A stretch of 64,000 nt of DNA from Nymphaea colorata (lineage: Eukaryota > Streptophyta > Magnoliopsida > Nymphaeales > Nymphaeaceae). Position numbers and translations under genes: made by a program. The number at the start of each line of letters is the position of its first letter. Position 1 is the first letter of the stretch. Of this stretch, positions 20,538 through 64,000 are shown piece by piece. The stretch covers positions 5,802,704-5,866,703 of the forward strand of contig NC_045139.1 in the NCBI RefSeq assembly GCF_008831285.2. The letters run 5' to 3'. The notes below the pieces were generated by a model. That model did no database searches. It saw only the letters and a program-made list of their open reading frames with translations, and had not been told where the DNA came from.

Positions 20538-20839
20538 CCTGAATATAGACAGTCAAAGTACAAACATAGGGTGGAGCTAAGAGGTCCATTCCTTGAATCT
20601 GACCATGGTTATAAATATCACCAGTATTGTGAAAATATTCCAATCTGCAAGAAAAGAAGATATTTGCAAAGTCCTACCCAAGAAAAAAGAAATAAAAAAA
20701 ACCATAACGTTACCCTCAGAAATTTATGGTCTCGAGATTTTTAACATCTTCTTCATATTTTTAAGCTTGCAATTTTTTATGTTTGTTTTCTTTATGTTTC
20801 TTAAAGGATTTTCTACTTGATTCTTTTGTATTTTTGCAA
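20538..20839 (+). repeat. 302-bp dispersed repeat, copy A (inverted partner at 42292-42592)
   Basis: From 'cctgaatatagacagtc' to 'tgtatttttgca' this stretch matches the reverse complement of 42292-42592 over its whole length with few differences. In one frame both copies read RGPFL then SDHGYKYHQYCENIPICKK without a stop, but at this level of nucleotide identity that is weak evidence for coding. Not recognised as a known family. Confidence 0.8.
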
Positions 20840-21120: not shown

Positions 21121-24100
21121 TTACATAAGATAATCATCCAGAAATGGGATGCTGAATGGCAGCTTTACAATACCAGAAGCCACGAGAAGTGCAAAAAGCC
21201 AGATAGGTAGAATTTTTAAGCCAAATAACATCAGAACCTCCTGCCCTGCACATGCAATTAGAGAGCTGTAACATTTCTACTGATACAGTAGCAACTTGCA
21301 TCCCCGTCTTAAAGAAATAGAAATGATTGTCAAACATATGCTGCACATTAGAACTCTACCAAACAACCCGTTAGATGTAGGAACTGACCAGCTTTTAGGC
21401 CTATAGCAATTTTGAGCCTTTTCCAACTCAAAATGCAAGGAAGAATGTCGAAGTGACCTCTACAACTCTTACGAAACAGCTTGCTACTTATGGCAGAATG
21501 TGTAGATGCGGATGTCATTTTGTAAATGGCAATATTCTTTAGCCCATGCAAGACTATTCTTTAGCCCATGCAAGACTACTCTTTGCCACGTAAATTAGAT
21601 CATTATACAAACTACAAGTGTCGTATAGCATCATTACAGATGCCAATATGAATAAGATAGTTACTTTTGAAAATGATACGTAAAAAAATGACTGGTATTA
21701 ACCATGCTCTTCTTCATGTCTATTTTCAACATTTTTTCTTTCTATTTTATCCTGCTTAATGAAATAAGGAAACATTAGTGGTGAGATTTAATTTTAGAAA
21801 TATCACAAACGGCGAAGCTCAGTATTATAAATGTTCTTGTTTAGAAATGATTGCCAAAAGTAATAAAAGAGTGTCTAAAATGATTCTGATAGTTGAACCT
21901 TTTCATAGATCTTTTGTTCTCGAAAAAATCATATAAAATACCTCTATAACAAATTAGTAGACTATTTAACGTAATGAATAAGTATTACACGTGAAACCAC
22001 ATTCATTTTCTTTCTGTATATATATGTTTTGATACATCAAGAACCAGATTTGAACTGGTGAAATGAAATTCAAACTCATGTAATAAGCCAAGGACTTGAA
22101 AGGATTATGTAAGAAATACCTATCCTATAGCCTTATTTACTGCACAATTTAGACAGAAATTGAATTGTGGTGCTAGCATCTAGGATAGAAAGTGGTGACG
22201 TTTTAGTTTGTAAAGGTGAAAAGATGTAAGCAAATAATGCGCTGCTGCTCCTCTTTAATGGCCGAACGGAACTTGTCTGTCCAGTCGGAAAATCTATGGA
22301 GTATTAGGGATAAAAATTTGGATAATTTTGGATGAAGAGTAATGGCTCATTTTCTTACAATTCTCAGATGTTGTAAGCAAAGAATGCACTGCTGCTCCTA
22401 TTTAATGGCCAAGGGAACTTGTCTGTTCGGAATATCTATGGAGTATTAGGGATAAAAATTTGGATAATTTTGGATGAAGAGTAATGGCTCATTTTCTTAC
22501 AATTCTCAGATGTTGTAAGCAAAGAATGCACTGCTGCTCCTATTTAATGGCCAAGGGAACTTGTCTGTTCGGAATATCTATGGAGTATTAGGGATAAAAA
22601 TTTGGATAATTTTGGATGAAGAGTAATGTCTCATTTTCTTACAATTCTCAGATGTTGTTGAAGGCCATTTTTTTGGGGAGGGCAAGAATTTTTTTTTTTT
22701 CCAAAAGAATCTAAAGCTCAACCACCTACTTCGGATAGTATATTAAACGGACAACTGGGCAAATACAGGAGGTCTGTGGGTCTGTTCTCTTAGTTACCTT
22801 CTGTTAATGCAGGGACACAAACAAACTGCTTTCTCAGATCTTAGAAAGGGGAAAGGTGCCTTTACAAGAATAAAGAATAAGAACAATATAAGCTCCATAA
22901 AATAAGTTGTCAAACTTCACCACTACAAGTAAGAAGCACAGAATTTCTAAGGAGCACTCAAGCTTATGGTTGAGATTTTGCAGGGGGAACAGAAGCTAGC
23001 ATTTCACTTCATTAACATAAGAGATAAAAGTGAAGTGTCTGATCCACCACCAATTTTCAAGTGGGAAACTATGATGTTAGCAGGATTGAATTCATAATGT
23101 CATCCCAGATTTTTTGCTTAAACTACAACATAGAGATAATAGCTTTCTGTTGTAAGATACAGAAAGTGGTCCCAATGCAAAGAGAAAGGTGAGGCAGCTA
23201 ATGTATACTCAATATTTCTACATAACCAGGTTTGTGACTTCCATTCATGTTTCTCTTCTTGTTACCAAAAAATATTGGAGAAAATCAGTACACAGTGTGT
23301 AGCTCATCAAACTCAAAATTCATGCTTCCATCATGTCGGAAGGCCAATTACAATCTCCAACTTTTACATGGTCTATCTCCAAGGATGACAAAACAGAGTT
23401 GCGAGATGATAGAAACTAAACAACATGCATCAGTTGGAGAACAAGGTATCCTGACCCGAGATATTTAAATGAGGAAAGCTGGGCACATATTCTAATGAAT
23501 GCAAATCTACAACTAAAGAAAGGAGAACAGCCAGATAAATGAAATAAAGTAATAAGGGAGCACAGCCCTTGCCAATATTAGAATGAAGAAAATTTCAACC
23601 TAATATGACCACTTCTAGAACTAAGGAAAGCAACAGCGAGATGGACAACACAGAGATCCATCTGCAATTTAACCCTATTAAACCTTTATCTCTCATAGAA
23701 TGGTGTGAGAGATAGAGAGAAATTAAGCGGTCACCGGCGTAAGACTTACCGGCCAATTAAGTTTCACCAGCGAAACAAGTACCTGTGTTGTTTGTTATTT
23801 CTTGTTCGCTCTACATATTACCTCAGACTTCATCCCCAACTTACCCGATTTGTGGTTTAATCAGACCACAACATCCTAATTCTTTTTTAAATCAATTCAA
23901 TTTGAACTTCAATTCCACATGTATTAGAACTACAAGGCATCGCGAACTTCGAGTTGCTCGCATGCATCTAGCTCGAAATGGGAAATTATATCCAAGTATA
24001 AAATAAAGAGTTTGGAGGAGATATAGAAACAAAACCACAAGCAGGTTCATTCCCAACTTATCGTTCCGTGTTTAACTTCAGACCACGACATCTCCCAAAT

Positions 24101-42291: not shown

Positions 42292-42592
42292 TGCAAAAAT
42301 ACAAAAGAACCAAGTAGAAAATCCTTTTAAAAGAAACAAACATAAACAATTGCAAGCTTAAAAATATGAAGAAGATGTTAAAAATCTCGAGACCATAAAT
42401 ATCTGAGGGTAACGTTATGGTTTTTTTTATTCTTTTTTCTTGGGTAAGACTTTGCAAATATCTTCTTTTCTTGCAGATTGGAATATTTTCACAATACTGG
42501 TGATATTTATAACCATGGTCAGATGCAAGGAATGGACCTCTTAGCTCCACCGTATGTTTGTAATTTGACTGTCTATATTCAGGCACCACCAA
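42292..42592 (-). repeat. Dispersed repeat, copy B (inverted partner of 20538-20839)
   Basis: The reverse complement matches copy A over about 300 bp, including the block 'atggtctcgagatttttaac'. Both copies keep an open frame reading YKYHQYCENIPICKKRRYLQ. Copy B sits just left of a tRNA-iMet-like primer-binding site, so the family could belong to a retroelement. Confidence 0.8.
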
Positions 42593-42705: not shown

Positions 42706-43065
42706 ATGATGGATTCCTAGCAGGGGACAACACCTTTGATTAGCTCCTTTTCTGCTCACCACGATCACCGACAGCGTCTAACAAGCGGCAGATGCAACAA
42801 CAACAGGAAAAAAGGGAAGGATGAGAAAAGACAGAGATGGTTAATTCCCGGGTTTGCTTTTGGAAGGCACCGATCAACCTTGTCCGTCTCTCAGGATTTC
42901 CCGATTATGGCCAGAGAGAATTTTTGGCAAGTTCGTGGGTGGTAACAAATCAAACAACTTTGATTTTGTTAATGAAAACTTTATTTGGAAATCAGTTTTC
43001 GTAACTGCAAGACTGCAAAAGGCCCTCTTGCAGTTACGAGATGAAGGCCTTATGCAACACACAGT

Positions 43066-43257
43066 CAAAGATTGGAGGAAAAAAAAAACAAGAAGATCAA
43101 GCAGAGATCGACTTCATATATGCCTTTTCAACTTTCAAAAAGAAAATCTTCCAATGGAGCCGGTGCCAAAGCAATGAGAAAACTTGAACTAGAAAAAGAC
43201 CCAAGAACCAGTAAAATGATGATGTTCATCAAAACTTAGAAGCTGATCAGCTGCGAA
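43066..43257 (+). repeat. Dispersed repeat, copy A (direct partner at 54681-54910)
   Basis: Shares long blocks with 54681-54910, for example 'gcagagatcgacttcat', 'gccttttcaactttcaaaaa' and 'ccagtaaaatgatgatgtt'. The two copies have the same orientation and bracket the ABCB gene. Divergence is moderate, with several indels. Confidence 0.78.
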
Positions 43258-45897: not shown

Positions 45898-46250
45898 AAT
45901 GACTACCTTGCTTCATGATAAACGGCTAAAGAATACAGAAAAAAAGTGATAAGACATTTTTATTATTTAGTATTTATCCACACCCTACCCTATCAAATAT
46001 GAAGCTTTAATTAGATGGTTGGTTAACTTTGGAAAGTCAAAGTTATCATTCATTCACCTTTTATATTTATTGCAATTCTTTGCATGGATATATATATCAT
46101 GCAAAGAAGGGTAGTATTTGCAATAAATACCACAGTGAAAAGCCAAGGAAAGTGATTGTCAAGCATGTTGGGCAGCTCATTTTTTTAAGAAATTAAAGCA
46201 AAAGAAGACTTAGAAGACAATGAAGGATCTCTGGCTCTTGCATCACTAAT

Positions 46251-49200
46251 TCAACACGAACCATTATGCAGTGTCACAAGTGATGCATACAACCCGTCCT
46301 TCCTACTCATGAGCTCGTCATGCTTCCCCTTCTCCGCAATCACACCATTTTTTATCACCGCAATCAAATCTGCACCTTGAATCGTTGGGAGACGATGCGC
46401 AACGACGATGGAAGATCTGTTCACCATTACTTTGTCTAGTGCATCTTGAACCACCCGTTCTGACTCTGCATCTAGAGCAGAGGTGGCCTCGTCAAGCAGA
46501 AGGATCTTTGGTTCCTTGATGATGGCCCTTGCAATGGCTATCCTCTGCTTCTGTCCTCCAGATAACTGAACTCCTCGCTCGCCAACGATGGTGTCGTAGC
46601 CCTCTGGCAGCGCCAATATGAACTGAAGTGCATTAGCTGCTTGTGCTGCTGCAGTGATCTCCATTTCTGTGACTGCTCCTATCTTCCCATATGCAATGTT
46701 AGCACGGATGGTGCCATTGAACAGCACTGGCTCCTGACTGACCAACCCAATTTGCTGCCTCAGCCATGTCAACTGAAGCTTTTGAATTTCTATACCATCA
46801 AGCAATATGTTTCCTCAGTCTGCATCGTAAAACCGCTCCAACAAAGAAAGAACTGTTGATTTCCCACTGCCGCTCTCTCCTACCAATGCAACAGTCTTCA
46901 AAAACAACTTCAGGTTAGGATAGACTAAGTTTGCAAGTAGAAGCATCATCTATCGAGTGACTAACAACAAAAAGGGTGGTTCGTAACATTGTTACAAGTA
47001 TAGTTTTCGGGTTTTTAGAGGAAAAGTTTTTCTTGGCTTTTTAACGGTAATTTTTTAGAAAATCTCCAAAAAACATGGAAAATTTTATTAAATAATAAAA
47101 TTAGGTATAGATGAAATAAATCAAAAAATAATTGGAAACATAAATAAAACTATATAAAAGTGACAAAAGGAATGCTTTAGTGATCATAAAATTGATGAAA
47201 ATAATTTAGTTAAGTTTATGTTTCAATCCATGATAATATCAATGCTAAAAAATAGAAAAATAAAAAATTAAGAAAAACCCATCAAAAGAAATGCGGAAAA
47301 TATTTTTCCTGTTTTTTCAAAATAGTGATTTTTTTTTTCGTTTTTCTTATTTTTCACGTGAATATCATGATATTTTTGAAAATATCACGATATCTGTGAC
47401 AAGGGACTTCTAGTTGAGTATATTATCACAACCAGAACATTTATCTTCTCACAATTAAATTGCGAGAAGATAAATGTTCTGGTTGTGATAATATACTCAA
47501 CTAGAACATAGCTACAATGCTGTTTATATACCTTTCCTGAAGCAATAATGAGAGAGAGGTCTGTGAAAATCTGCATGTTTGGCCTCGTTGGATATTTAAA
47601 ACTGACATGCTGAAATTCTATATCACCCTTCACATAAGGAAGCCTAATGCGTCCTTCATCGCTCGGATCAATTTGTGATCTACGGTCAAGGATTGAAAAG
47701 ATTGAGGCTGCAGAAACCTTTGCTTTGCTAAAGTCTGGTGCTAAACCACTTGTTTGTGAAACTCCAGTTGCCGTCAATGTTAAAGCAAAGAAAACCTGGA
47801 AAAGAGTCCAATGTCAATGTCTCAAAGAAAAAATATATAGAAATTATAATGAAAATAGAAATTATTGTGATGATGGCATGATATTTCACATACTCTAAGT
47901 ACTTTGCCAAATGTTGCGTTTCCACTCTCTACAAGACGAGCACCAACATAAAAACTTAGAGCATAGACAGATGAGAGAACAAACAATGAAAAAGCACATC
48001 CAAGACCACTAATGAGAGCTTGCCGAACTCCATTTTTCCTCGATGCCCCACATTTCTCTTCGTAAAGATCCATCACCTGTTGTTCAGCACAAAAGGAAGC
48101 AACTGTTCGAATGCTACTGATGACATCATTTGCTACTTGACTTGCTTCCTCATACATTGCCTATACGTAACACATTCCATTATCAACAAATAAATTCTCA
48201 GATACAGAATAATTACATATCCTGAGTACTATACTACTGAAATATACTTGTAAACAAAGAGACAAGTACTTGACAATGTTAAGACCAAGGAGAACCAACC
48301 TTGGCATCAGCATTAAACCTTTCCAGAAATTTTATCTGTGCAAAGCCTTCCAGACCAATCAAGGGAACATATACTAAAATTATGAGTGAGAGCTGCCAAT
48401 TGGCTACAAAAGCAATCGTGATACCTGCAATAAGGGTTATAATATTTTGCACTACCAAAGAGAGTGCATCACCAACAAGACCTCTCATAGTTGCAGCATC
48501 TGCTGACAACCTTGCACAAATGGCTCCACTGACAAAACAAAAAAGAAGAAGATTACTAATTTGAAGTTTAACTTTTTTGAATTTTATGGAGGATAGGTTG
48601 TTGGTCATCCACATATACCTTGAGTTTTTAGCTTCATCGAACCAGCCGATTTCCTGGTGAAGAACCCTCTCAAATGTCATTGCCCGGATTCTTTTGATAA
48701 GTTGGGCTCCAGCGACTCCAAAAAGATATGCTTGTATAGGTGCAACCAGAAAAGAAGTGGCTCCTAGAACCAAATACATTAGAGACCAGAAATTTGCATC
48801 CTTCTGAAGCTGGTGTGGTGGTTTAAAAAATGTCTTTGTGATGCTTGAGAACAAGAAGCCGAAAACTGGAAATATGACACCATTTATTGCTGCAGCGATG
48901 CATCCTAACAACAAAACAGGAAGCTCTGGCTTGTTCAGGTATGCCAGACGCCAGACTGAAACATTCTTGTCAACCTTCCTAGGTGTATGACCACCACGAT
49001 CGACATCACTAAGACTGAGGCCGCCATCATGAATGTGAACTGTGTCTGGCAAACCTGAGGATATTGACAAAGAATGCCTATTGCTTTGATCAAGTGAGGA
49101 AGACTGCCCACTAATGGATCGGTTGAATGAATATTGTTGGCTATCAGATGCTCTAGAAACCTTGTTAGATTCCAAACTCAATTCATTATGAACAACGATA

Positions 49201-52200
49201 ATTCCCCCTTGTTCACCCTGATTTGTTTGTTGCGAACAAATAAGTTGAGAGTATGAGCCTTTTGGATTTCTAATCAGCTCCATGTGGGAACCTGTTTAGA
49301 AGGAAGCAATTAAAAAGTCAGTAAACTTGAAGCATGAGTAACTCATTTTCCAAGTTCAATATCTAGTGTACTAAATGGTTCATTCTTGCCTTGCTCAACA
49401 ATTTTGCCACCATGCATTACAGATATGGAATCAGCATTTCTTATGGTGCTCAAGCGATGGGCAATGACAATTGTGGTCCTTCCAACCATGATTCTGGTCA
49501 GAGCATCTTGAACTATGTGTTCAGACTCCACATCTAGTGCACTTGTTGCTTCATCAAGTAAAAGAATCCGTGGGTTCCTTAAGATTGCTCTAGCAATAGC
49601 TATTCTTTGCTTTTGTCCACCAGATAGTTGTGTACCATGTGCACCAACCATCGTCTCAAGGCCCTGCAAAATTGATAAGTTAGTAGTCAAGCACAAAAAT
49701 GCATGTCATAGTATTTAGTCCAAAAGAAAGGGTATTAGGTTAACAAAATGCATCACCTGAGGCATGTTGTCTATGAATTTTGCAGCATTTGAAAGCTCAA
49801 TAGCAGTCTTGATTTCCTCTAGTGTTGCACCAGTTTTTCCATATGCAATATTTTCCTTTATGGATGTTGTGAATAAAACAGGCTCCTGATTGACAAGCCC
49901 AATTTTTTCTCTAATCCAGCCAAGTTGAAGTTTCTTCAAGTTAACTCCATCAATGAGCACCTCACCAGCTTGAGGATCATAGAATCTCTCAACTAGACTA
50001 ACAACTGTTGATTTTCCACTACCACTTTCTCCAACTATAGCTACAGTAGTCCCACATGGTACATGCAGTGAAAAGCCAGAAAAGATTGCCACTTCAGGCC
50101 TTGCTGGGTAACAGAAATGTATATTTTTCAGTTTGATATCTCCTTTTATATCTCCTAGGACAATCCCACTCTTGTCATATGCATCTATCTCAGGTTTTCT
50201 GACAATCGTCTTAAACATCTTATAAGCTGCTGCTTTACCAGCTGCAATTGCACTTAGACAGGGTGAAGCCTGTCCAAGGGACCTGTTTCAGATGCCAAAT
50301 ACACATACTATTAATAAAGGAAAGCATGTTTTGTGTGCCTGTGAATACAATGTAGTATGCAAAAATTACTTACATTCCTCCATTCATAATGGCCAACATT
50401 ACATTGATCACCTGTCCACCCGTATATCCTTTGTTAATTATCAGCTTTGAACCACACCAAAGAGACAATGCATAACTGCAAAAAAGGAATAGCAACATAG
50501 CTCCAACTCCTGCACCTCTTGTTACTCCTTGTTTCACAGTGGCTAGATATGCAGTTCGTAGTGCCTTGTTATATTCTGCTATAGCTTGTTTTTCTCCTGT
50601 AAATGATACAACCTGTTGATATTGAATAGCTAATTTAGCCACTTCTGGTTACTAAAAGGTTTCTTTAGAGGAGAAGATAAATCCAAATTAATAGTAGGCC
50701 ACAAGATAGATGTAAAAGTTTAACTCACCAACCTTCTAAATGCAAGTCAAGGATAATCAGAACCCAAAATCTTTCAGATATGGAGGGACTGATTTTGACC
50801 TGCTGATAACAAGTTTCAAACTAAAGAAAACAAAATGCATGCAACTTCATAATGTCTACAGATAAAGTTCAAACTGCATACCATTCTTATTGATCCAATT
50901 GCTTGTTCAACTACAATTCCAGCACCAGCATAAGCAGCTCCCTCACGGATTGAGAGTCTGGATATAATTAAAGAGATGACGCCCCCAGCAGTGACTACTA
51001 AAGGAATTGATGCTAATGTAACAAGAGCGAGGAGCCATCCCTTGATAAGTGCTATAACAAAGCCACCAAGAAATGTCGACATGATCTCTATGAACTTTCC
51101 AACCTAATCAAAAGCAAATTATAGGTTTAGTCAAATGTGAGGGACCAATTACAAAATCTCCTGTTAAAATTTGGCAACTTGTAAAACTTCATAATTCCAA
51201 AAATAAAAGATAAATGTTTTGATCATGAGTTTATCAACTTGAATCAGCTGGTTATCGTTATTACTGAAAATTACAGAAGATTTCAATTTTAAAAGATATC
51301 AGAAGTAACAAATAATGACAAATACCATCATAAAATCCAGACCAAAAGTCAACCACATTTAACAATTTGAAGGAAACTTGAAGTATTTCTATGCAGCAAT
51401 TCTTTTACAGCATCGAGTAGAAAGAAAGAGAAAACAGAAACTGTGATCACAAAACAGTCAGAGATCAAATACAAATAAGTAAAAGTCTGAAGACGTCAAC
51501 TTAACCCACATCAAACTTAAAGAAAGTCATTAGTATATGCTTCAACATCGAATCTTGGTACATGTACAAAACAATTTCTTTCAGGATTGCAAGTCAGCAA
51601 GACTGTCCTTAAGGGGAAAAAGACTGCTCCTTCACTTTCTCATTCAAATTCAGAACGCTAATTAAGCACCACATAATTAAAATTACAAACATTATAATCC
51701 TAGAGGAAAAAGGAAACACAAATAGGGTTGACAATGATTCTGAGAGAAAGAGCAAGAACAGATAAACTAACTTTTCCTTTCCTTTTCTTGTTGGCACGCT
51801 GGGTAAGGCAGACGCCTACCAGATTTATGCAGACATATTTGCCTCCTATGTATTGTAATTTTGTTCTCCTTCAAGAAGGCCTCAGCCAATCTTCCTTGCC
51901 TCGTGAATGGAATCCTTTAGATTGGAAAATATTTCCACAATCTTAGAACTGATGAATACAGCACAAAGGAATATTAATGATGAAAAATGTTGAGCAAAAA
52001 TTGTTACAAAATCATGTACATACGTGTGTACATATACACGGATATACATATAATCGTTTATATATATATGATTTCATACATGTTTGTGCATTTTACACTT
52101 ATTGAATTAATGCATGTATATGTACAATAATTTATATAAGCATATAGGACTTCTTATGTATCATTCCAAATTTTTGTATTCAATTTTTCTGTATTTCTAT

Positions 52201-53448
52201 TTTTTTTTCTTAATTTGATGCACTCTGGTCAAAGGTCAAAGACGACCCTTGCCCAAACTGAAGCTAGCCCAACGGGCCCTCGAGGAGAGGAGGACCAATG
52301 AGAGCAGCACAGAAGTCTATTTCATATCAATCTATCATAACGAAGGGTGATTCCTAACATCTCTGACTGCGGAATACAACAAATTAAATCCTGAAGTTCA
52401 GACTGTAGTGTTTGATAATATACATATATATATATATATATATCAGCCAGTCATTCACCCATGGCATTATTCTTGACGAGGCATATATGGAAAAAATAAA
52501 TACTTTTTTTGTATAGTTCGTGTCGAAAACGACTAACCTTCTTCCCTATTGCCTCTTGGATGAGGATGGTATCACCTGACATTCTGCCAATTACTTCTCC
52601 TGTCTTTATCTCCATATCAAAGAATGCAATGTCCTGTCTAAGAATGTTACTGAGATACAAGCGCCTGATACGATTGGCTTGCCTTTCTCCAGTAGTCATC
52701 CAACACGTGATCTCTGCAAGTTTCACCGGAAAAAAAAAGTTGAAAAAGAAGAAGCTAGGAAAATTAGTCCAGATGTTAGGAAAGATCGGGCACGATAAAT
52801 TCACCAGTACTTAACAAATGCAGATGAAAACTTTACCAAATGAATGATTTACGGAGGTAAAGCAAAGCTACCATCATGAAACTGCATGCTCCGACAGTGA
52901 AACAAAAGAAAGGATCGATATTGTACTCACGTAAAAATGCTAAGACGGCTCCTCCAACAGCCAAATATACATATTTAAGTGCTACCTAGAGAGGAAAAAA
53001 TTTGTAAGAACAATAATAGAATGACTAATTAATGCAATCCTTTATTTATACAACGTCTAATCATCAATCCTTTATATATTCATTAGAACATAGCAATGTA
53101 GCAAGTGGGAACAAAAGTTTGCAGAAAAGAAAGTTCTGTAACACATGGATTACAGACTTTCATTACCTTGGAGACCACATGAACCACATTTGTCCTGTCT
53201 GCTTGGCCGAAAGAATCAATAAGCTCCCCAAACAGTAGGGTCGAGAGAGGCAAGGCCAGCCCGTGGCTGATTGCTGAGAAGCTTCCCACCGTCATCAGAA
53301 GAACATCCAACAGGTCTGCAAACGCAACCAATTTGTGGAAGGGAACGGAAACGCCGTCCTTCCCGTTTCCTCCCTCCCCTTTCTTCACCTTCTTCTCTGT
53401 GTCATCCCCTCCCTGTGGATCACCGCCACCACCTGCTTCTTTCGTCAT
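46251..53448 (-). CDS. ABCB (MDR/P-glycoprotein) full transporter with premature stop in the second ATPase domain
   Basis: Twelve exons: 53448..53167, 52985..52931, 52713..52538, 51103..50882, 50612..50374, 50282..49757, 49663..49390, 49291..48619, 48528..48300, 48160..47894, 47795..47532 and 46895..46251. Phases agree throughout, giving 1,284 codons, the usual length. The order is membrane domain 1, ATPase domain 1 (GESGSGKST about 409, LSGGQKQR about 513, [12 protein letters not shown]), Ser-rich linker, membrane domain 2, ATPase domain 2 (GESGSGKST about 1075, LSGGQKQR about 1180). It closely resembles the plant ABCB4/11/21 group, plasma-membrane exporters that include auxin transporters. 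Two oddities: intron 7 has a GC donor, and codon 1096 is TGA (46815-46817) where relatives have Ser. Read literally, the protein stops before the second signature and Walker B motifs, so this may be a young pseudogene or a base error. Confidence 0.9.
47408..47506. repeat. 99-bp near-perfect palindrome in ABCB intron 11
   Basis: Two 49-bp arms meet at a single central base (47457) with one mismatched pair (47451/47463). The arms contain 'gttgagtatattatcacaac' and its complement. It lies in the last intron, close to exon 11. Confidence 0.92.
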
Positions 53449-53637: not shown

Positions 53638-54544
53638 AGTATGCAGACTAGTTAGAAAAGAAGAAGATCACATCTAGGCACCGCCAGACTTCTTTTTCCA
53701 GGTGAATTTTGTTTCAGAGTAGAAAAGCTGGTTAGCATTTGGGTAGCCGGTGTCACCGGAATTGGTTTGAATCGGTTCATTAGAATTGAATGGGTAGCAA
53801 ATGGGCTTCACTCATCAGCATGCTTGTTATTTTCTCAAATTTTAAAAGTTTTTTTTTTGTTTTTATAATTATTCTTATATATATGATTAAGAAAATATGT
53901 TTCTTTTTTTGTGAGGAAAAAGATGGAGTACTAAGGTTCGGTGGTATGTTTACCTGAATAGACAGGGTTAACGTTTACCCTGCTGAGAATATGTTTCTTT
54001 TTCTGTGAGGAAAAAGATGGAGCACTAAGGTTCGGTGGTATGTTTACCTGGATAGACGGGGTTAACGTTTACCCTGCTGAGAATATGTTTCTTTTTTCGC
54101 GAGGAAAAAGATGGAGCACTAAGGTTCGGTGGTATGTTTAAGGGTAACCGAACCTTAGTGCTCCATCTTTTTCCTCGCGAAAAAAGAAACATATTCTCAG
54201 CAGGGTAAACGTTAACCCCGTCTATCCAGGTAAACATACCACCGAACCTTAGTGCTCCATCTTTTTCCTCACAGAAAAAGAAACATATTTTCTTAATCAT
54301 GTATATAAGAATAATTATAAAAACAAAAAAAAACTTTTAAAATTTGAGAAAATAACAAGCATGCTGATGAGTGAAGCCCATTTGCTACCCATTCAATTCT
54401 AATGAACCGATTCAAACCAATTCCGGTGACACCGGCTACCCAAATGCTAACCAGCTTTTCTAGTCTGAAACAAAATTCACCTGAAAAAAGAAGTCTCGGG
54501 GTGCCTAGATGTGATCTTCTTCTTTTCTAACTAGTCTGCATACT
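53638..54544. mobile_element. 907-bp foldback structure with 94-bp internal repeats
   Basis: The left arm (53638-54130) and right arm (54147-54544) are inverted copies around a 16-base loop. The outer ends read AGTATGCAGACTAGTTAG and its complement. The left arm contains three units with a 94-bp period (from 53895, 53989 and 54083), the right arm only two, so the arms differ by one unit. It fits a foldback or Mutator-type element. No target duplication was seen directly at the arm ends, so the class is open. Confidence 0.85.
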
Positions 54545-54680
54545 TGCCACTTATAGCAAAATTACCCTAGCATCGATCTCATCGACTCATGAGCTTTCAT
54601 GACACCATTAAAAGAGGTTACCAAGATCACGAAAAGAAAAAGGAGAGGTTAAGTTCGAGCACTCCAGGAGATCCAACAGG

Positions 54681-54910
54681 CAAAGATTGGACAGAAAAAA
54701 AAAAAAAAACCAAGAAGATGAAGCAGAGATCGACTTCATGCATATATGTTTGCCTTTTCAACTTTCAAAAAGAAAGAAAAAGTTACGAGGACGATCCAAT
54801 CATCCAATGGTGCCAGTGCCAAAGCAATGGGAAAACTTGAACTAGAGAAACACCCAAAGAACCAGTAAAATGATGATGTTGATCAGAACTTTGAAGCTGA
54901 TCAACTGCAA
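54681..54910 (+). repeat. Dispersed repeat, copy B (direct partner of 43066-43257)
   Basis: It matches copy A in blocks (see 43066-43257), with extra bases near 54743-54790. No coding signal. Confidence 0.78.
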
Positions 54911-56940
54911 ATATTATAATAAGATCCAAAAGCACACATAATAACATATATTGGAACTGGGATATGAATTTCTTTTACATATCCAAGCAAGCCAATTTAG
55001 ATCTGAATTCATATTGCTACTCACCTCTAACAAGAGCAAATAAAATTTCATGTACTAGAACTTTTAGTATAACAGATCTTCAGATAAAAAATATTTCGTT
55101 AATATGACTTCCATCATGTTTAAGAGTATTACCTTTCAACAGTAGGCAAAAGACAAACATAATAATATATTTGATTGCTGTAAGTAGGAATATTTAAAGC
55201 CAATGATCCAAACAAGTTAATCTGGATATTCATCTTATCATGAACCAAACACAATGCTATATGGATCTCAACAAGTCTAAGATTGTTGATTTACACTTCT
55301 TAGCATACCAACATCAATAATGTAATAATTACTTTTAACTAGGATAAACATACAATAATATAATCTTTGTTTAGAAAATATTCTTTCATAAGGAGCAAAA
55401 GAATTCGTTTTTTTAGTACTCTGTGCTATTCACATTGAATATGTACTACTTTTAAAATCATTAGATCTAAAAATTAATGCATATGATAATATGTTTAGAC
55501 CAAATATAAACAAATATAGATCTAGATCTTGAGCAAAAAAGTTTAAACAGATAAAATCAGATCATGCTCCAAAAAAGTACAACCTTTATTGTGAGATTCA
55601 AATGCAACATCTGAATTGATATATAAAACAATTTTTTTTCATATCTAATATCACCATAAACCCAAAATGAACGGATATCCATAAAGCAAACATAATAATA
55701 TATATTTAAACCAACATATAGGATATGAATTTTTAAACAGTATCTAAACAAATTAAGATCTGAATATGTCATAAACTAAAAATGAATATAAATATCGATC
55801 TTAAGTAACGATTAGATGCAAAGCAAAAATCCAAATGGTTATCTAGATTCATTCAGATCATACCATTACGGATCCAAACACAATGATATCAACGATTGAA
55901 TCAATATATATTTAAAAAACGAAAGAAGATCCAAATTCAAATACAATATGAACATATTTTAACATAACATCCATATCCAAATAAGATTTTAGTTATTGTC
56001 AGAAACACAAGGTTTATACCGCCATTTGGTCATGCACGCACAAAATAATAAAATTGCATAAACATATATACATGTTACTAACCATTTAGTTTTTCGATCT
56101 TGGTCAGTTCTGAGGCTCTCATTCTATAAGTCTCTCTTAGTTTTGAATTGTAATGGCAAGTAAAGAAAAATAAGAGGTCACAAAATCTCCAATAATATTC
56201 TAAAAAGTCACTTGCTTCAAGGCAAGGAGATCTCAATTTTAAATTTTGAAGGTAAATTTTCTTTTTATTTTCAAATTTATTTTCGATGCCCTCTTTCAGT
56301 AAATTTAATAAGTCTAAAGTGTACCTATACGCAATTGTGTATAAACTCTCGATTTTCCGCTGAAATTGCACAACAATTTTCTAAAACCCTCTTTTAAAAA
56401 TTTATAATAAGCTTGAGGGTATCACTACGAAATTTTGTATAAAATCGTAGTTTTTTGTGAAATTAACTTTCCGAAGCGCCTTTTTGAAAAAAGTTTTTTG
56501 AAAATTTTGCTAATATTGTGGACTAAAATTGTAATTTTTAAATTTTGAGTATAAAACCGAACCCCAAAAATTTCTCATTTTCGCCCCATTTTCTCTCTCT
56601 TCTTCGCGAAAGCTCCGCTAGGGTGCGGGCCCTTTCCCTGCCGTCGCTGCTCGAACCACCGCCGCCGTGGCCATGAGGAAGGCGACCTCGTCTGCTTCCG
56701 CTGCCAGAGAAAGAAAAAAAAAAAACGAGGAGCTGCGGCAAACGGCGGTGAAAACTGCCGACCGGTCGACCTCCGATCTTCGCACGGTTCTCCGGCAGAG
56801 GTCTCTGAACCACTCTGAAAAGGAGCAGTTTCAGAGCAGTGGTGGAGTCTCCGACTGCACGGGAAACAGAGAGGTCTCCTCCAGCCGTCGTCAGCGGGCT
56901 CGACCGACTTGGGGTTTCTGTTGCCCAGGCTGTTCGTCAG

Positions 56941-61540: not shown

Positions 61541-62752
61541 ATGGACTCAGAAAGTATCTTCCCATATGACCACATCCTATTCGGGTCATGTCAAGGCCGA
61601 TCCGGACTTCGCATCATCCCAAGTGGAGTCTACCTACCTCAGTGGTATCTTTCATGGTACCCAACTTTTCGGTGTATGTTCCCGGATCACTTAGAGGATT
61701 GCGGTCTTGAAGAAGCAGTCAGTCTTGCCATACAGCCTATCAATGGCAATCTAATCCATGCAATTGCTGAAAGATGGAACCCAAGGACCAACACATTCTG
61801 GTTTCCATGGGGTGAAATGACAATCACTCTTGATGAGTTCTCCAACATTATGGGTTTGCCAGAACCAAAAGGTGACCCAAGAGGTCCAATTGAAGACCAG
61901 TTCCTTGTAAACCAAGGTCAAGTCAAAACTCTAGAAGTGATTCGTAAACTCACAGGGAAAAGGAGTTGGCATTTTCTAGAGAAAGATGGACATCAATATC
62001 TTCAACTACAAGAGCTTGGTGAAACATACTCCCAATTTGTCAACCCTGCGTCACTATCTAGAACTGTTGCAGACAAGTACAAAAACTCCATAGTGACTTG
62101 TACCGTGGGTCTTATCTTCTTCAATAATGAAGAACACATAATGGATTTCCGCATAGCTCGCCTCTTCAGAAAATGGGGGCATGTCCAAGTCCGTCACATT
62201 TCCATAGCAATGGCAGCCTTGGCATTCCTTTACAGAGGGTTGGCCAAATTTTCAATTGGAGATGCAGACTCGATAGAAGGATGTGTCTTTGCACTGCAAG
62301 CATGGTTCTACAAACATGTGGGGCCACAATCATGTCATTTTCAAAACACAGACGGTCAGTTATCTAGTATGGAGCACTACCGCAGAAAGATGGAGGAAGT
62401 TGATGACTCCACCATCATTTGGGACTTCTTTGATCGAGAGGTCATCAAGTCAAGATACACTTACAACCCAGTCAGAGGAAGTCTTCTATTGGGACCGTTT
62501 TTCATAATTGAATATCATCCGGAGCGTTGCCTCAGGCAATTCTCACTGCGTCAGAGGAAGGCATATCCAATTGAGTCGGAAGGAGCCATTGTGGAGTGTG
62601 AACTAGACACTGAAGAGTGGTCCGGGATATACACCTATGCCCAGCAACGTTGGGAATCATTTGCTCACTTGTATCTTGTCCTTGGTTCAGGAATGGGTCC
62701 CGAATATGTAAAATGGTGGGATGAAGTTCGCCCATCTATCCTTCTGTCCTAG
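61541..62752 (+). CDS. Retrotransposon ORF1 with plant mobile domain (aminotransferase-like PMD)
   Basis: A single open frame of 403 residues without introns. Around residues 80-115 it shows the PMD pattern: IAERWNPRTNTFWFPWGEMT followed by ITLDEFSNIMGLPEPKG. In cellular PMD proteins the equivalent block is a trim W-x-P/F-x-x-GE-x-T-x-T-LED-V-x-x-L-GLP. Further typical features are the IMDFRIARLFRKWGHV segment and an aromatic, Trp-rich C-terminal half. PMD is known from the plant proteins MAIN and MAIL1 (meristem maintenance and silencing of transposons) and from transposable elements. The ORF lies 750 bp after the primer-binding site and 184 bp before gag on the same strand, so it belongs to the element. 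Its function there is unknown. The ORF has no stop or shift, unlike the neighbouring gag. Confidence 0.82.
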   Translation: MDSESIFPYDHILFGSCQGRSGLRIIPSGVYLPQWYLSWYPTFRCMFPDHLEDCGLEEAVSLAIQPINGNLIHAIAERWNPRTNTFWFPWGEMTITLDEFSNIMGLPEPKGDPRGPIEDQFLVNQGQVKTLEVIRKLTGKRSWHFLEKDGHQYLQLQELGETYSQFVNPASLSRTVADKYKNSIVTCTVGLIFFNNEEHIMDFRIARLFRKWGHVQVRHISIAMAALAFLYRGLAKFSIGDADSIEGCVFALQAWFYKHVGPQSCHFQNTDGQLSSMEHYRRKMEEVDDSTIIWDFFDREVIKSRYTYNPVRGSLLLGPFFIIEYHPERCLRQFSLRQRKAYPIESEGAIVECELDTEEWSGIYTYAQQRWESFAHLYLVLGSGMGPEYVKWWDEVRPSILLS

Positions 62753-62935
62753 ATTGTCATGTCTAATTCATTGTCATTAAGCCAAAATTTGTCAAGTTTT
62801 GTCAAGTTATGTTAAACTTTGTCAAGTTTTGTCATTCTCATCTTTCTTTTAATATGTAATCAAAATTTGTCACCTCTCATCAATTCACATCCTAACATTT
62901 TCAATTTTTCTTCTTGCAAGGTGAACATCCGCTTT

Positions 62936-64000
62936 ATGGTTGAAACCAGAAGCCAAAGCAGGAGAAGGAGTGAAATGGAGCTTGATCAACCTTTTATAGG
63001 AGACAGGGGAGAAGAATCCTCCTCAGAAACACCTCCCAAGCTGGAAATAAATGACCCAGAATTTGAGGAATACAGAAGATTTCGGAAATACATGATCATG
63101 TTCAATGAAGAACAAGCGCAGGCAGAAAAAGCCAAAAAGAAAGGGAAGAAAACAAGAAAGTACTCATCAAGCAGTTCAGACTCTTCTGAAGACGCTACAA
63201 CAGAATCTAGTAGTGAGGAAGAACCGAAAACTCCCAAGAAAAAGAAGAAGGAAGAATCCTGGAAAACAAAATCCAGGAAGTTGAAAAAAAGTTAAATGCA
63301 GTACAACTTAAAGGCAAGAACAAGAGGAATTTCACTTGCGAAGATTTCTACGAAAGCTTCGAAAATGACAAACACATAAAAAACTTGCCCAAGAAATTTA
63401 TCAAATTTGATGGCCATGGAGACCCAAAGGCACATTTGGCCATGTTCTTTGCTGAATGCTACAAATTCCGCCACAATCATAGGGCCCTCTTTCGATGTTT
63501 CCCTAGAAGCCTAGAAGGAATTGCAGCACAATGGTATCGGGAACACATCAACCCAGTGGAATTGAAAAATTTTGACATGTTAATCAACCTTTTCATCGAA
63601 AGGTTCATTCAAAACGTTGAAACTGCACCAACGATCACCACATTATGCTATCTAAAACAGAGGCCAGGTGAAAAGGTGAGAGATTTTATTCAGAGGTGGA
63701 GGTCTTCTTGCAACAAGATGAGAGACCCAATATCTCAATCCATGCACTGGATTGATCGTAAACAATTTGACACAACCATTAAGGAGCCTCATTTCCAATG
63801 CTCCAATCAAGTCTTTCATCGATCTCACTGAGAGGGCAGAATGCATTGAAGCAGGAATTGAGAATGGAGCTTTTGATGCTGTCATCCGGTAAAAGTAAGG
63901 GAAGATACAAAAAGAATAGCAGAAGTCAGAATGCTCCAGCCAACATCGTGGCCAACGCTGCAGCCTTCAAGAAAGAAAAGTCCGAATATCCTAAGAATAA
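62936..64000 (+). pseudogene. gag of the LTR retrotransposon, frameshifted, 3' part outside window
   Basis: It starts with MVETRSQSRRR, a common opening of plant Ty3/gypsy Gag. An acidic and lysine/serine-rich region follows. The Retrotrans_gag domain is recognisable from FIKFDGHGDPKAHL through AAQWYREHI to YLKQRPGEKVRDFIQRW. The frame changes three times: near 63247-63258 (a purine-rich run), near 63740-63752 and near 63879-63885. Homology continues across each change, so these are indels rather than the end of the protein. This copy is therefore unlikely to make an intact Gag. It normally forms the virus-like particle core. Confidence 0.8.

Follow-up and report, generated by a model that had tools for sequence, protein, structure and literature searches.

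A full-size ABCB transporter gene of Nymphaea colorata is probably a duplicate that has just begun to turn into a pseudogene, in which the protein sped up first and a nonsense codon, fixed or segregating, followed recently. The gene lies in the window, the whole 64,000-nucleotide stretch analysed here (C2:5802704-5866703). In the proposed order of events, duplication would have been followed by a weakening of constraint and faster protein change, and finally by a TGA at codon 1096.

Gene model and position of the stop codon

The gene was rebuilt from the window sequence on the basis of open frames, splice consensus and homology. It has its ATG at 53448 and its final stop at 46251 on the minus strand. 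The 12 exons that a previous, sequence-only reading had described as in phase indeed join in one frame, and stops occur in the translation solely at codon 1096 (46817-46815) and codon 1284. The main features of the model are the following.

46251..53448, minus strand: ABCB coding span of 12 exons, 3852 nt in phase, with Pfam ABC_membrane (two stretches) and ABC_tran
46815..46817, minus strand: in-frame TGA, codon 1096; Ser in the sister gene L089 and Ala in the outgroup L090 at the same column
46251..46895, minus strand: exon 12, last exon of the model, which includes the TGA and, in the second ATPase domain, everything from Walker A to the H loop
46854..46880, minus strand: Walker A of the second ATPase domain (GESGSGKST) in the translation, 5' of the TGA
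46551..46565, minus strand: LSGGQ signature in the translation, second ATPase domain; absent from the shortened product
49292..49389, minus strand: intron 7 with GC donor (CAAG/GCAAGA); GC also in the intact sister L089
46896..47531, minus strand: intron 11, preceding the last exon and holding a short inverted repeat at 47408-47506

By its domain content, the window gene is a plant full-size ABCB transporter gene with the TMD-NBD-TMD-NBD architecture, and it may resemble the ABCB4/11/21 subgroup. Pfam finds two stretches of ABC_membrane and ABC_tran in the first 1095 residues; the 187 residues past the stop match positions 40-137 of the 137 in the ABC_tran profile. Both GESGSGKST and both LSGGQ motifs that the sequence-only reading had noted are in the translation, the TGA follows Walker A of the second ATPase domain and precedes its Q loop, as had been stated, and the normal length claimed for the gene agrees with the 1280 and 1282 aa of two paralogs in the same genome. 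The best-scoring solved relatives are Arabidopsis thaliana ABCB19 and ABCB1 (PDB 8woi, 9juj), which match over nearly the full length and share the TMD-NBD-TMD-NBD order; unlike the window gene they are intact, and they are more distant from it than the paralogs.

The introns are GT-AG in 10 of 11 cases, and intron 7 is GC-AG, a point absent from the sequence-only reading and a class that a passage of PMC6310983 puts at 1.2% of plant splice sites on average. The GC donor was considered as a second lesion and rejected, as the intact sister gene has GC there too. A tandem ABCB copy was not detected within the window, where four pieces used as tblastn queries (E up to 0.01) matched this gene alone, and neither Rfam (gathering thresholds) nor ARAGORN found RNA genes in the window.

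Expected effect on protein and mRNA

Translation would end at codon 1096, leaving a product of 1095 residues with two membrane domains, a complete first ATPase domain and, from the second, just Walker A. What follows in the second ATPase domain (Q loop, signature, Walker B and H loop) is encoded 3' of the TGA and would be missing, so that a complete second ATPase domain is not part of the product. In ABC exporters each ATP site is formed by Walker A and Walker B of one domain together with the signature of the other. With signature and Walker B of the second domain lost, both composite ATP sites would therefore be disabled, and the 1095-residue product should be inactive as a pump.

No exon of the model follows the one with the TGA, so the mRNA should escape exon-junction-dependent decay unless its 3'UTR contains an intron. 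The stop is followed by 561 nt of former coding sequence and the 3'UTR, with the first AATAAA at 46071; decay through a long 3'UTR is therefore possible, and the mRNA level may fall in this way. According to a passage of PMC3711448, the long-3'UTR reporter G-600 is a decay target in plants, and core junction proteins are dispensable for this.

Paralogs in the same genome

The genome of the same species (407,766,735 bases in 783 contigs) was searched for relatives of the window gene; all match counts are lower bounds. The DNA of exon 12 (645 bases) gave at least 12 matches, including itself once at 100%. Next by score was a match on C7 with 84% identity (638 bases), followed by matches of 78% and 72% and then by weaker or shorter ones. 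A near-identical second copy or haplotig with another base at the TGA was not found in the 407.8-Mb assembly. With the protein of exon 8 there were likewise at least 12 matches, the top four being the window gene and three loci on C7.

Three near-complete copies of this ABCB gene were found in the genome, one of them with an early stop. The intact sister, L089 (C7, 15635500-15645000), has 12 exons, encodes 1280 aa and has its sole stop at the end. It resembles the window gene in its exon number, in all exon phases, in the GC donor of intron 7 and in 1017 of 1280 identical residues, and differs from it by having no premature stop, by Ser at the TGA column and by 40 versus 116 private changes (see below). 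The intact outgroup, L090, also lies on C7 and encodes 1282 aa with the sole stop terminal; its exon 2 was located by a scan for exons of 55 nt in the fitting phase. Identical residues amount to 925 of 1276 between L089 and L090 and to 849 of 1279 between the window gene and L090. The disabling lesion of the window gene thus coexists with two intact relatives, L089 and L090, in the same genome.

Other relatives on C7 are decayed. Traces of L104 start about 13 kb from the L089 gene (located at L104:509-3389); exon 1 found no match in it and exons 4-7 found none belonging to it, the frame changes within exons 9, 11 and 12, and exon 10 contains an in-frame stop. L105 is a remnant (L105:7711-8051), reduced to a degenerate part of the second ATPase domain. 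L092, L093 and L106 gave no match; the C7 survey covered the region with the exception of C7:15674701-15714999. Judged from these matches, the C7 region is an assembly of living and dead ABCB copies, and the window gene on C2 appears as a dispersed member. When a second copy of the neighbouring open frame at 37-38 kb was sought in the own genome as a sign of a duplicated block around the window gene, only the frame itself was recovered.

Faster protein change of the window copy

The relative-rate test took L090 as outgroup and used 1275 of 1286 codon columns, leaving out the gapped ones and the stop column. Private residues number 116 in the window gene and 40 in L089, a 2.9-fold difference (chi-square 37.0, P 1.2e-9); at fourfold sites the counts are 32 for the window gene and 26 for the sister, of 387. 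The excess is spread over the protein, with window to sister counts of 34 to 18 in the first membrane domain, 14 to 3 in the first ATPase domain, 15 to 1 in the linker and 33 to 10 in the second membrane domain. In the second ATPase domain the counts are 4 to 2 before the stop (P 0.41, not significant) and 15 to 4 after it; the remaining private residues fall outside these domain bounds. Before the stop, private residues total about 100 in the window gene and 36 in the sister.

Ka branch lengths are 0.079 for the window gene and 0.031 for the sister, and the window branch was the longer one in 1000 of 1000 bootstraps. The private changes of the window gene are also more radical, with a mean BLOSUM62 score of 0.30 versus 1.03 in the sister (Mann-Whitney P 0.014). 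Among the changes private to the window gene are S1239P, close after the H-loop His, and E508A, shortly before the first signature.

46386..46388, minus strand: codon 1239, Pro (HRLPTI); Ser in both own-genome paralogs
49640..49642, minus strand: codon 508, Ala (VGAHG); Glu in both own-genome paralogs

The sequence-only reading had called the gene otherwise perfect. This description stands as far as further stops, frame breaks and splice losses are concerned, but not for the protein, given its 116 versus 40 private residues and their more radical character.

When branch times were set equal, omega was 0.43 for the window gene, 0.15 for the sister and 0.10 for the outgroup. Under this model a common omega for window gene and sister costs 21.6 log units, and fixing the window omega at 1 costs 35.9. 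With free times, a model of the window branch against the rest gave omega values of 0.42 and 0.11 (2dlnL 59.2), and three free omegas gave 0.30 for the window gene and 0.26 for the sister, with times of 0.85 and 0.34. The omega contrast therefore depends on equal branch times. These times are poorly fixed, because the synonymous sites of the outgroup are saturated (Ks 1.84) and the Ks branch lengths have broad intervals (-0.00 to 0.47 for the window gene, -0.06 to 0.42 for the sister). The amino-acid asymmetry is independent of the branch-time assumption, and the window protein evolved faster than that of the sister before the stop arose.

The faster change is probably due to weaker constraint rather than adaptation. 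The excess does not differ between ATPase and membrane domains (Fisher P 0.41), and this evenness fits a general relaxation at least as well as a change of substrate. The equal-time omega of 0.43 also agrees with relaxation, but the free-time values of 0.30 and 0.26 do not set the two branches apart, and adaptation is a possible alternative.

Age and reality of the stop codon

The 1282 sense codons of the gene allow 11538 single-base changes, of which 471 (about 4%) create a stop. No further stop, frame break or lost splice site was found in the model over these 1282 sense codons, and the absence of further lesions bounds neutral divergence at 0.4-0.6% (95%) when stops, splice-site and start bases and indels (assumed at 0.1-0.2 per substitution) are all counted. 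Had the whole protein excess arisen by neutral drift since the stop, the gene should bear 24-55 lesions (assumed indel ratios of 0.05-0.2 and a poorly fixed point estimate of Ks 0.22 for the branch). As none is seen beyond the TGA, the excess can hardly all be younger than the stop; the protein sped up earlier, and the stop arrived late. The stop looks recent. Of the three readings offered from the sequence alone, a very young loss of function, a segregating null allele or a base error, the base error is less probable than the other two taken together, and the youth is borne out by the absence of a second lesion.

That the TGA is a one-base consensus error in an intact, merely fast-evolving duplicate is unlikely, albeit well short of negligible. 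The TGA is the sole disabling change in 3852 nt. With about 4% of single-base changes in the coding sequence making stops, even an assembly with a modest error level should contain such genes, and picking at the first stage would favour genes that bear stops. Long-read errors are more commonly insertions and deletions, and the coding sequence has no frame break, which argues against an error. The faster protein change is a further and independent sign in favour of a genuine nonsense allele; it makes a real lesion likelier here than it would be in a well-conserved gene. All in all, we consider it quite likely that the base is real.

A comparable case is Zostera marina ABCB19, which was misannotated as three gene models over a stop in exon 2 (PMC5716013). 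As in the window gene, the stop is inside a recognisable plant ABCB of an assembled genome; the gene belongs to another ABCB branch, the stop is in exon 2, and the relevant passage of that paper is silent on whether it is real.

Residue usual at the stop codon and at other conserved sites

Relatives had been said to have usually Ser at the position of the TGA. This applies to the sister L089 and to three of the four ATPase domains that Arabidopsis ABCB19 and ABCB1 have between them (Ser, Ala, Ser, Ser), but L090 has Ala, and only 18 of 80 prokaryotic relatives have Ser. The latter are the best 80 of 591 confirmed relatives, picked by the peptides QLSGGQKQ and DEATSALD, and among these 80 the column contains Glu 20, Ser 18, Ala 9, Gly 9, Lys 7, Asn 6, Arg 5 and Asp 3 times and Gln, Cys and His once each. 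The column of the TGA is therefore a variable site. At the column of codon 1239 the same best 80 of 591 have 67 Ser, 9 Ala, 4 Thr and no Pro; one Arabidopsis domain has Cys.

At columns conserved to at least 80% in the best 80 of 591 relatives, the second domain of the window gene departs past the stop at 5 of 72, the matching part of its first ATPase domain at 4 and the four Arabidopsis domains at 2-8. Excess damage at deeply conserved columns was therefore rejected, the window counts being within the Arabidopsis range. Residues never seen in the best 80 of 591 relatives number 5 in the second domain, 9 in the first and 3 to 8 in the Arabidopsis domains.

Possible but improbable: bypass of the stop, or retention of a shortened protein

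It is extremely improbable that the TGA is real and bypassed by cryptic splicing or read-through, resulting in a working protein. Within exon 12, 203 GT/GC-AG pairs (at least 60 nt apart) could excise the TGA in frame. When candidate donors within exon 12 were scored, 10 of the 11 GT/GC candidates located 5' of the TGA were weaker than every real donor. The eleventh, at 46883, has 5 of 8 consensus matches (the 11 real donors score 5-7), and its use would delete Walker A. The earlier statement that no nearby splice signal removes the TGA thus holds within exon 12, the only donor in range costing Walker A. As for read-through, the next codon is GGA, and TGA followed by GGA is not known to be a leaky context; nor are plants known to have a selenocysteine system.

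Retention of the truncated 1095-residue protein for a new role, e.g. as a dimer partner or regulator, is hardly probable either. The frame is fully open up to the TGA and the branch omega is well below 1, as retention would have it, but the codons past the TGA are as lesion-free as those before it, and the fast change is not limited to the part after the stop (15 versus 4 private residues after it, about 100 versus 36 before). Hence nothing marks a long-lived truncated form. That a transporter of 1095 residues, its first ATPase domain intact and its second reduced to Walker A, was retained with a role of its own after altered selection on the duplicate is exceedingly unlikely.

Repeats and other features near the gene

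A near-perfect inverted repeat is located upstream of the gene.

53638..54544, no strand assigned: near-perfect inverted repeat whose 399-bp arms agree at 386 of 399 positions; it begins some 190 bp 5' of the ABCB ATG

It folds at z -56 (versus 20 shuffles) and, if transcribed, could feed small-RNA silencing of the ABCB promoter. The gene is bracketed by direct repeats at 43061-43257 and 54676-54911 (78% over 236 columns), which may be left over from mobile elements or from an old duplication. Intron 11, which precedes the stop-bearing exon, contains a palindromic stretch of 99 bp (47408-47506). Elsewhere in the window, a repeat of roughly 300 bp occurs in two copies of opposite orientation (20538-20838 and 42292-42583, 94% alike) and a 142-bp unit is repeated three times in tandem at 22225-22658 (96% alike). 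At 61541-63831, an open frame of 403 aa with a plant mobile domain / DUF7745 precedes one that matches a retrotransposon gag.

Significance

The literature search found nothing joining ABCB21 and ABCB11 with 'premature stop codon'; PMC6326724 deals with naturally occurring loss of function in Arabidopsis thaliana. The window gene most likely represents ordinary birth-and-death evolution of a gene family that also has older dead copies, and no general picture is altered by it. It offers a clean snapshot of how a duplicate may die, with a faster protein and then a single stop while the frame and the splice sites are whole, and intact as well as long-dead relatives are available for comparison in one genome. 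If the stop segregates, it would be a natural knockout of one ABCB copy.
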